In this document: positions 31,069 through 33,536 of the stretch, piece by piece
How positions within the stretch are numbered: position 1 is the first letter of the stretch
Layout: each line of letters opens with the position of its first letter
Assembly: GCA_027459645.1 (NCBI GenBank)
Contig: DAIDHQ010000018.1
Location: forward strand, 1-49,432
DNA from: Vulcanimicrobiota bacterium
Lineage (GTDB): Bacteria > Vulcanimicrobiota > Vulcanimicrobiia > Vulcanimicrobiales > Vulcanimicrobiaceae
DNA: 49,432 nucleotides
Direction: 5' to 3'
Notes under the pieces: model-generated
Seen by the model: the letters and a program-made list of their open reading frames with translations, nothing else
Told to the model about the DNA's origin: nothing
Database searches by the model: none
Program-made: the position numbers and the translations under genes

Positions 31069-31578
31069 CTACAAGATGGTGCGGGCTTGTTCGAGCATGT
31101 CGCGCATATTCGGCAGATCGCCGGGGTGGACGCCCGCGTATTTCCAAACGATGCGGCCTTCACGATCGATCAGCGCCGCGCCGGGAAGCTGCGCGCCGTC
31201 TTGAATGCGCGTCGCGCCCCAGTTTTGCGAGAACCCGGCCTTCTTGTTTTCACGGCGTCGCGCGAGCAGCGCTTTGTCGCTGAAGAGCTTGAGTAAATTG
31301 TAGTCGCCAAAGCCCATCGATTTGAACGTCGCTTTGTTCGGATCGGGAATGCAGCGATCGGCCATGCCATAAGGCGAGCAAAATGCGGCAACCTTTTTCG
31401 CATCGCCGATAACCACGAAGCGCACTTCGACGCCGAGCTTATCGAATTCCGAGTCGAGCTCGCGCAACTGCGCGAGCGGTTCAGGGAAAAACGTTCAACC
31501 GACGTGGCGGAGCCACACGACGAGCGTGGGCTTGGGAAGATCGAGGGCCGCGACGGCCGCAGGAAGCGCTTCTTGCAT
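31069..31578 (-). CDS. Peroxiredoxin-like protein, probable selenoprotein (in-frame TGA)
   Basis: The ATG at 31578 (GGATGAG upstream) opens a frame of 169 residues if the TGA at 31495-31497 is read through. The sequence reads LVVWLRHVG, TGA, TFFPEPLAQLREL, which aligns with the AhpC/TSA_2 motif R-H-F-G-C-x-F-C-R-E. The TGA thus falls exactly on the peroxidatic cysteine (residue 28). The frame stays coding on both sides (FVVIGDAKKVAAFCSPYG and LPGAALIDREGRIVWKYAGV). A perfect hairpin starts 18 bases after the TGA. Insertion of selenocysteine is the best reading. The second motif cysteine is Phe. A nonsense mutation is the alternative. Confidence 0.7.
31458..31477 (-). promoter_or_regulatory. 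SECIS-like hairpin downstream of the in-frame TGA
   Basis: In the mRNA sense GCTCGCG, a short loop CAGTTG, and CGCGAGC form a perfect stem that starts about 18 bases after the TGA codon. The small apical loop carries a G in its first positions. Distance, stem and loop agree with the bacterial SECIS element read by SelB, although part of this could be chance in GC-rich coding DNA. Confidence 0.55.
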
Positions 31579-32258
31579 GCAAGCTCATCCTAGATGACGT
31601 CGCAGCCCTCCTTTTTTGTCGTCGCGTCTTGCGCCGGATGCCCATCCAGTAGCTCACGGCAATTGCGGTGAGCAGCAACAACGATCCGGCGATGCTGTGT
31701 GCTCGAGTGACAAAGGGCGTCACGGTGGCGACCGGCAGCAATGCTCCGTGCACGAGCAGGAGCAGCGGTTCGGTCCGGTGGCGCGCGAAGCCGGTCACAA
31801 CTGAAGGCACCCATTTTGCTTTTTGCCGCCCTCGAGGCAAGCCATCGCCACGTGCATAGCAATTTTCGGAAGGTTCAATGTCGCCGATCGAATCGTGACT
31901 CGCGATTCTCGGGTGGTTATACGCTCTTGCATGGTCTTTGGTCAGCGACGGCATCAAGCTCTCGGATATCAGTTGATTGTGGAACGTCGCCCTTGAGTTC
32001 TCGCCCATTGATCAACCCAGGCAAGGCGAATATCTCATCGCTTTGGGCGCTTCAGGCTGGCTTTGATGGCAATACCGGTAACAGCGTAAAATGTGACCGG
32101 TAATGACGTTCAACCGGTGTTGAAAATACCAGTTCTAAAGAGAGGAGAGGCGCCTTATTGAGCAAAATTGGCGGCTCTCAATTTGCCGATAAGTACGCAA
32201 TATTAATACGGAAGTTTGTCGGCGTCGTTCTGTTCAAACGGAGGTAACACGTTCTTTC
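31579..32258. other. 680-base stretch without a confident gene
   Basis: On the minus strand a frame between about 31600 and 31860 encodes two hydrophobic stretches, LLLLVHGALLPVATVTPFVT and AHSIAGSLLLLTAIAVSYWM, followed by a basic tail (GIRRKTRRQKRR). It could be a small two-helix membrane protein, but it lacks a clear start and would overlap the selenoprotein gene. The right half is less GC-rich than the surroundings and contains only the ribosome binding site GGAGG at 32240 for the next gene. Confidence 0.3.
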
Positions 32259-32791
32259 ATGAGCGGTATTGTGATCAATGGAGTGAAGGTCGACACTCAG
32301 CAACTTCGTCAAAGTTGGAGAGCGCAGGAGTTGACGCGTCAACTGCTATCGAAGCGGGAGCTCTAGTTAATCTTGCGTCTACAACTGACGTCTATATTCC
32401 ATCTGATCCATCCAAGGCCGCGTCAGTCAGCCTTTACGATAAGAGCGGAAGGTTGGTTGGCACGGAACAGGTTCAGCAGCAAGGAACGATGCAGCCTCAA
32501 CAAGAGGAACCCGTTGCCGGTTGGGTCGCCAAGGCAATTGCGAGCGGCATGATCAGCTGGGGCGTAGGCCAAGCGCTGTCGTGGGCTTGGGACAATCGGG
32601 CATCTCTCGTGCAAAATTGGCCTGGGCCTATCTTATGGATGCCGCCGGTCGGTAATCCGTCGTGTCCGGTGAATCCGCCTACCCCCGTTCCATTTCCGGC
32701 TCCGGCACCTAGCTCGACGGCTGACCCGTCGCAGTCATCTAGCAGCGATCCGTCTCTGCCGGTAAATCACGTCCGTCGGCAATCGCAATAA
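32259..32791 (+). pseudogene. Frameshifted gene for a small Gly/Ala- and Pro-rich protein
   Basis: From ATG 32259 one frame reads MSGIVINGVKVDTQQLRQ and then stops at 32366. The frame one base back continues KLESAGVDASTAIEAGALVN and runs to 32791. A single missing A in the AAA at about 32309-32313 joins them into a protein of about 177 residues. The middle (VAKAIASGMISWGVGQALSW) is an amphipathic or hydrophobic Gly/Ala/Trp-rich segment, and the C-terminal 50 residues are Pro/Ser-rich. I do not recognise it. It sits directly before a CPBP protease gene, a combination seen with secreted peptides and their immunity or processing proteins. Sequencing error and real decay cannot be separated. Confidence 0.45.
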
Positions 32792-32876
32792 GGTGCCAAG
32801 AAGGAGAGGTGCGGAGAACGCGCGCACTGTCGCAAGCGCTTCCCGCATCTCTCCTTGAACGAATGTTCGAAATATT

Positions 32877-33536
32877 GTGCGGTCTCCGGCTTTAGTAGAA
32901 CAAGCGTATAAGCAATTTTTAGCCAACGCTAAGTTAGCTGAGGTGCTCCTTATTGCGCTTCTCGTTGGGTTTGCTGCTCAGGCTGCAACAAGGTGGCCGG
33001 AAACATCGACCGTAGTCGTCTATGCGATCCTTTCGGTTGCGGCGTTGCGCGCAGCGCGCGTTTCCTCGCGCTTCAAGGACGTTGCTTATGGTCTGTTGAC
33101 CATGAAACAAACGCTGCTGGTTGGAGTGGTTGTGGGCTGCTCATTTCCTCTAGCGGCGTTGTTTATTTCGATCGTAGAGCGCGCGCTATTCCCTACGTTG
33201 GCCGGCAGCATTTCATTGCCGGGAGTATCTTCAACAGTTGCGCTACCCCACTCACTTTGGCATCTCATCCTGCCGTTGGTTCTCGCACCGCTTGCGGAAA
33301 CGGCCATCTTTCAAGTATGGATACAAAGTCAAGTCAGTAGATACCCTTGGGTTTCTTTTTGTATTGGGTCCTTGTGCTTCATCGCCGTCCACCTCGAACT
33401 GAACCCAATGATCGTGTTCGCTTCGTTGGGGCTGTCAGCAGTGCGGGCGTTCACCAGGTCTTCTGGATGCGTCTTAATCGCACACATCGCCGCGAATAGT
33501 GTGGTGTTCGGCTTCCTCCTTATTGCCAACCATTAG
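32877..33536 (+). CDS. CPBP-family intramembrane protease homologue, altered first motif
   Basis: The 219-residue membrane protein has about seven hydrophobic helices. The CPBP motifs can be placed. The second motif is FIAVH and the third is HIAANS, both intact. The first motif, normally E-E-x-x-x-R, reads AETAIFQ in LAPLAETAIFQVWI, so one Glu and the Arg are lost. It may be an inactive or specialised member. CPBP proteins cleave substrates within membranes and frequently act in peptide maturation or self-immunity. The start is GTG 32877. The base composition is lower in GC than that of its neighbours. Confidence 0.75.
   Translation: MRSPALVEQAYKQFLANAKLAEVLLIALLVGFAAQAATRWPETSTVVVYAILSVAALRAARVSSRFKDVAYGLLTMKQTLLVGVVVGCSFPLAALFISIVERALFPTLAGSISLPGVSSTVALPHSLWHLILPLVLAPLAETAIFQVWIQSQVSRYPWVSFCIGSLCFIAVHLELNPMIVFASLGLSAVRAFTRSSGCVLIAHIAANSVVFGFLLIANH

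Follow-up and report, generated by a model that had tools for sequence, protein, structure and literature searches.

A stop codon within an open frame

The minus strand of the window (the whole stretch of 49,432 nucleotides analysed here) carries a gene of a soil bacterium that appears to be broken by a stop codon, raising the question of whether this TGA ends translation or is read as selenocysteine (Sec) in a redox protein. The gene spans 31069–31578 (−); the original prediction had placed it correctly and had omitted the strand. The frame starts with an ATG (31578–31576, −) that has a Shine-Dalgarno-like AGGA 9 nt on its 5′ side (31588–31591, −), and the TGA (31495–31497, −) follows 27 codons downstream within WLRHVG-U-TFFPEPL. 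Past the TGA the frame stays open until a TAG at 31071–31069 (−), and with the TGA as Sec it encodes MQEALPAAVAALDLPKPTLVVWLRHVG-U-TFFPEPLAQLRELDS...ARTIL, a product of 169 residues with Sec at residue 28 (U28). Both the ATG with its ribosome binding site and a frame open on either side of a single TGA (169 codons) had been predicted, and both are borne out here. The plus strand of 31069–31578 holds an unrelated frame with its own stop.

An open reading frame listing with translation table 11 retains only the C-terminal 132 codons (31069–31467), the truncation that had been foreseen for ordinary annotation, and further members of the family are probably overlooked or cut short by automatic annotation. 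A TTG at 31467 could start this 132-residue ORF, in which case the TGA would be a real stop separating a short N-terminal peptide from an internally initiated C-terminal protein. Such a C-terminal protein would, however, lack both the active site and the strand that opens the fold. Moreover, the WLRHxG-U motif spans the TGA with invariant residues on either side, and the Cys form in genome G127 is one uninterrupted frame, making two separate products very improbable.

Sec and Cys alternate at one codon among relatives

A search of 149 genomes of the source phylum (Eremiobacterota) identified 25 loci in 24 genomes. In 22 same-family loci this very codon is TGA, within G-U-T-F-F or G-U-R-F-F, two loci of family f14 (L043 and L044) have TGA in the context G-U-I-F-C, and one relative (L039) has Cys (G-C-R-F-Y). 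The original prediction had turned on whether homologues carry Cys or Sec at this site, and solely TGA or Cys was found there; a residue other than these two was seen in none of the loci read. Scanning of the genome contigs with the single protein as query gave no match, and with the alignment as query gave 32 loci. A diverged Cys relative with CRYA/CHYA replacing UIFC is present in the f14 genomes G134 and G137 (L114 and L115).

These counts bear on the possibility that the gene is a pseudogene, or that the TGA is a Cys codon broken by a sequencing or assembly error. TGA is one base from TGC and TGT, and a single MAG contig could hold such an error; the same codon is, however, TGA throughout 22 loci of the family that were assembled separately, the protein is constrained on both sides of it, and the codons of the downstream hairpin are frozen at synonymous sites. 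The probability left to a broken codon is negligible.

Beyond the source phylum, the Planctomycetota MAG S-RSF-IL-06 has TGA in G-U-L-F-F followed by the same CUCGCGC-AGUU-GCGCGAG hairpin, Spirochaeta and Ignavibacteriae relatives have G-C-R-F-Y, and Dormiibacterota relatives have CxxC. Among 392 Planctomycetota genomes searched, 87 contain relatives. The best 20 of these loci were read: 17 have TGA and 3 have Cys, the TGA forms being mostly UxxC with U-x-F-F in three genomes. Many in-frame-TGA relatives were observed among the planctomycete loci L121–L137, mainly UxxC and frequently sharing the GCGCAGUUGCGC core of the hairpin. The viral contigs searched held no relatives. In the tree the U-x-F-F proteins of both phyla and two C-R-F-Y proteins make up one supported side (96/86), from which the UxxC/CxxC branches lie apart, and Sec and Cys have been exchanged more than once.

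A constrained bSECIS-type hairpin follows the TGA

The sequence GCUCGCGC-AGUU-GCGCGAGC lies 17 nt after the TGA (31458–31477, −) and forms a perfect 8-bp stem in which 31477–31470 pairs with 31465–31458 around an AGUU loop (31469–31466); a perfect stem starting 18 nt after the TGA had been predicted and is found at exactly that place. Bacterial SECIS (bSECIS) elements are stem-loops just 3′ of the UGA that have a G among the first loop bases and a loop 16–37 nt from the UGA; the eukaryotic SECIS lies in the 3′UTR. The present hairpin has the bacterial form, with its AGUU loop starting 26 nt after the UGA. Taken as a single sequence the fold stands out only slightly (z −2.0; matched by 6 of 200 shuffles), and 11 of the 1145 TGA triplets of the window (1.0%) have a perfect 8-bp stem at the bSECIS position. 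Such a hairpin at the appropriate position is thus no great rarity, and comparison was needed as a test. It is conservation that sets this hairpin apart from chance: TGA and stem are kept together in 22 of 22 same-family Sec loci, where the stem columns are nearly invariant and 98% of cells pair, and a stem of this kind is absent from the Cys relative L039. The proposed bSECIS-type element is thus conserved with Sec and missing in the Cys relative.

Formal covariation is weak because the stem hardly varies. Pairing is preserved through a single double change, G-C to A-U in L023, and through several changes of G-C to G-U; column shuffles match this covariation in 195 of 500 cases; the case for an RNA element therefore rests on frozen synonymous sites and on position. 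Mean synonymous diversity is 0.08 at the hairpin codons (+7 to +12) versus 0.45 at 33 other conserved columns. At position +10 all 22 loci encode Leu by TTG, a codon that accounts for 9.8% of Leu elsewhere in these genes, and within the hairpin Gln is CAG and Glu is GAG in 22/22 (49% and 56%, respectively, elsewhere in these genes). Arg is the sole variable hairpin codon (CGC/CGT), and the pair is kept in 20 of 21 distinct rows, with L022 as the exception.

In the two f14 loci the TGA is followed, at an unchanged distance, by another hairpin with a GUU loop, and these two hairpins differ from each other by a pair change from C-G to U-A. The Gly codon directly 5′ of Sec (31498–31500 in the window) was also observed to be GGT in 22/22 same-family loci, compared with 22% of Gly elsewhere in these genes; it is GGG in L064 and GGC in f14. 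Searching the source genome with a covariance model of the hairpin brought up no further convincing selenoprotein, the matches L079, L083 and L084 being rejected as weaker and in unsuitable frames, and an Rfam search returned nothing meaningful.

The source genome encodes the Sec machinery

The source genome (3.14 Mb in 47 contigs, 96.6% complete), whose closest named relatives are Candidatus Eremiobacterota MAGs, encodes tRNA-Sec with anticodon UCA (C40:133930-134019), selB (C40:143813-145654) with selA adjoining it, and selD on C26 (G000:C26:38676-39602, L018), whose own SSCAGUAAK motif, the classic one, contains a TGA. The presence of selA, selB, selD and tRNA-Sec, which the original prediction had looked to the genome for, together with the Sec codon in selD, makes it very probable, quite apart from the gene studied here, that the organism uses Sec. 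The selD gene has a downstream hairpin of its own (CGCGCAA-GUC-UUGCGCG), akin to the one described above.

Recoding lineages exist, and the TGA might be read as Trp or another residue through a variant code or a suppressor. The source genome, however, has complete Sec machinery, its UCA tRNA is tRNA-Sec and its selD carries Sec; homologues have Cys, never Trp, at the column. We give a variant code next to no weight. Pseudogene, split gene and Trp recoding were all rejected on conservation together with machinery.

The gene also follows selA across genomes. In the source phylum selA scores above the cut-off in 121 of 149 genomes; it is present in 24/24 genomes with the gene, and the gene occurs in 0/27 genomes lacking a selA match (Fisher p = 0.008, uncorrected for kinship). 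Among the 20 Planctomycetota genomes read, selA is found in 15 of 17 with TGA and 1 of 3 with Cys. The two TGA genomes without selA (G149 and G364) are assemblies of unknown completeness, and the G149 contig could be misbinned. In an f14 genome the selA match (G134:C21:69523-70815) contains one in-frame TGA, either a frame error or real.

Machinery, homologues restricted to TGA or Cys, and a conserved hairpin all support the insertion originally proposed, and Sec is almost certainly incorporated at residue 28. SelB-GTP and Sec-tRNA(Sec), retained by the hairpin that the following codons form, would reprogram the ribosome at the UGA in a presumably SelB-dependent manner, with Sec entering at residue 28 to give the 169-residue protein.

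A peroxiredoxin-fold protein with a single redox residue in its motif

The protein matches Pfam AhpC-TSA_2 (PF13911) with 49.9 bits against a gathering cut-off of 27, and matches NCBIfam NF040769 (SelL-related redox protein) over its full length (95.2 bits, E 3e-27; curated cut-off 120). NF040769 is the best match for all relatives tested (six plus the planctomycete form), all below 120 bits, and on these scores the window protein and its relatives lie outside NF040769 as curated. A sequence search of the PDB gave no match. The AlphaFold2 model (pLDDT 94.4) most closely resembles human prostamide/PGF synthase (9usa/9us9; Z 15.3, 146 residues, 2.5 Å), followed by PrxQ/Bcp chains (Z 14–15 over 138–141 residues), in keeping with a Prx fold; the 1-Cys Prx folds of AhpE and Prx6 (Z 13.7) and ResA/Trx-like chains are also among the matches.

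The active-site sequence departs from the motifs of related families. The canonical peroxiredoxin motif PxxxT/SxxC(U) is absent and is replaced by V21...H25..U28 (Val at −7, His at −3); the CxxC-type motif after LRxxG, typical of PF13911 and not universal, is absent, the sequence being U-T-F-F with Phe at +3; and the SelL UxxU diselenide motif is absent, with a single U and again Phe at +3. The protein is a PRXL2/SelU/SelL-like (PF13911) Prx-fold protein rather than a canonical peroxiredoxin. The original prediction had placed the TGA at the peroxidatic position: the alignment with Cys holds, homologues having TGA or Cys there, and the term does not apply in the strict peroxiredoxin sense, PxxxTxxC being absent.

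The whole reading, a Prx-fold selenoprotein of the SelL-related/PRXL2 (AhpC-TSA_2) superfamily with Sec at residue 28 and acting as a redox enzyme, is very probably correct, and a thiol/selenol redox function is likely. Reduction of a (hydro)peroxide type has roughly even chances, and peroxidase activity is no more than a possibility, given that PxxxTxxC is missing and the nearest solved structure is a PRXL2/SelU-type CxxC reductase. PGF synthase-type endoperoxide or hydroperoxide reduction is our first guess, with disulfide reduction as the main rival. That the selenoprotein is a thiol-disulfide (Trx-like) or other redox enzyme, and not a peroxide or endoperoxide reductase, has a substantial probability, somewhat below even: the closest fold is a CxxC reductase, ResA/Trx-like chains match too, and the peroxiredoxin motif is missing, but the 1-Cys Prx folds match nearly as well, and the loss of the second Cys of CxxC rules out a dithiol mechanism inside the motif.

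In a redox cycle of this kind the selenol of U28, positioned just before helix α2, would attack an oxidised substrate, either a hydroperoxide or, as for prostamide/PGF synthase, an endoperoxide or a disulfide, to form a selenenic acid or selenenylsulfide. Since Phe replaces the second Cys of CxxC, this intermediate would have to be resolved by another thiol, most plausibly Cys76 or otherwise an external thiol or thioredoxin. By alignment and codon counts Cys76 (31351–31353, −) is Cys in 22/22 same-family Sec forms, and it is Cys also in L039 and L064; the planctomycete form L122 is without it. Cys67 (31378–31380, −), assessed in the same way, is kept in 21/22 same-family Sec forms and is Ala in L023. 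We tentatively propose Cys76 as the candidate resolving thiol. A further possibility, equally tentative, is that Sec has freed this branch of the superfamily from the need for a second redox residue in CxxC, giving a one-selenol enzyme with Phe at +3 that is resolved by Cys76 in another strand.

Genomic context was not used to assign function because the neighbours are not conserved beyond the genus: the cytochrome-oxidase neighbourhood is common to the same-genus relative alone, and a relative in another genus has SurE upstream and ClpX downstream. A low-GC stretch (32000–33536; GC 0.49–0.57) with two plus-strand ORFs, one encoding a CAAX/Rce1-like protease, separates the selenoprotein gene from the cytochrome c oxidase genes; it looks like an insertion, since in the same-genus locus L046 the gene directly follows the oxidase genes.

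Relation to known Sec-containing families

Sec forms of this superfamily are already known. A bacterial Sec-containing AhpC-TSA_2/cd02970 peroxiredoxin-like family with a UxxS motif (PMC9312934 Table 1; PMC13188914 Table 1) shares PF13911 and a single Sec in the active-site motif with the window protein, and differs in its listed motif (UxxS there versus U-T/R/L/I-F-F here). Animal SelU, whose SelU3 branch is prostamide/PGF synthase (PMC3473315), includes the top fold match and is known in both Sec and Cys forms in animals; the human synthase has Cys44/Cys47 (CxxC) and about 20% identity to the window protein. SelL of fish, invertebrates and marine bacteria (PMC2397514; PMC3316567; PMC2398784) is likewise Prx-like with Sec in its active-site motif, but has two Sec two residues apart that form a diselenide, whereas the window protein has one Sec and no second redox residue at +3. 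The Sec peroxiredoxin of Eubacterium acidaminophilum (TxxU; listed in PMC13188914) has a Prx fold with Sec in the loop before helix α2, as here, and differs in its PxxxTxxU motif, which the window protein lacks.

Different Sec motifs on the same domain are counted as distinct subfamilies (PMC13188914), and U-x-F-F is not in the table of that paper; U-x-F-F is therefore a new motif subfamily within an already known kind. Open-licence papers yielded no literature linking Eremiobacterota with selenocysteine or selenoproteins, although a description elsewhere is possible. The gene represents a conserved selenoprotein of the poorly studied Eremiobacterota; it is closely related to planctomycete genes and is cut at the UGA by ordinary annotation. 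The one-selenol arrangement with Cys76, if true, would be a catalytic layout for which the literature found gives no precedent in the family. Since its active site breaks with the superfamily's two-residue motif, the protein is well suited to testing cleanly which functions Sec can take over in Prx-fold reductases.
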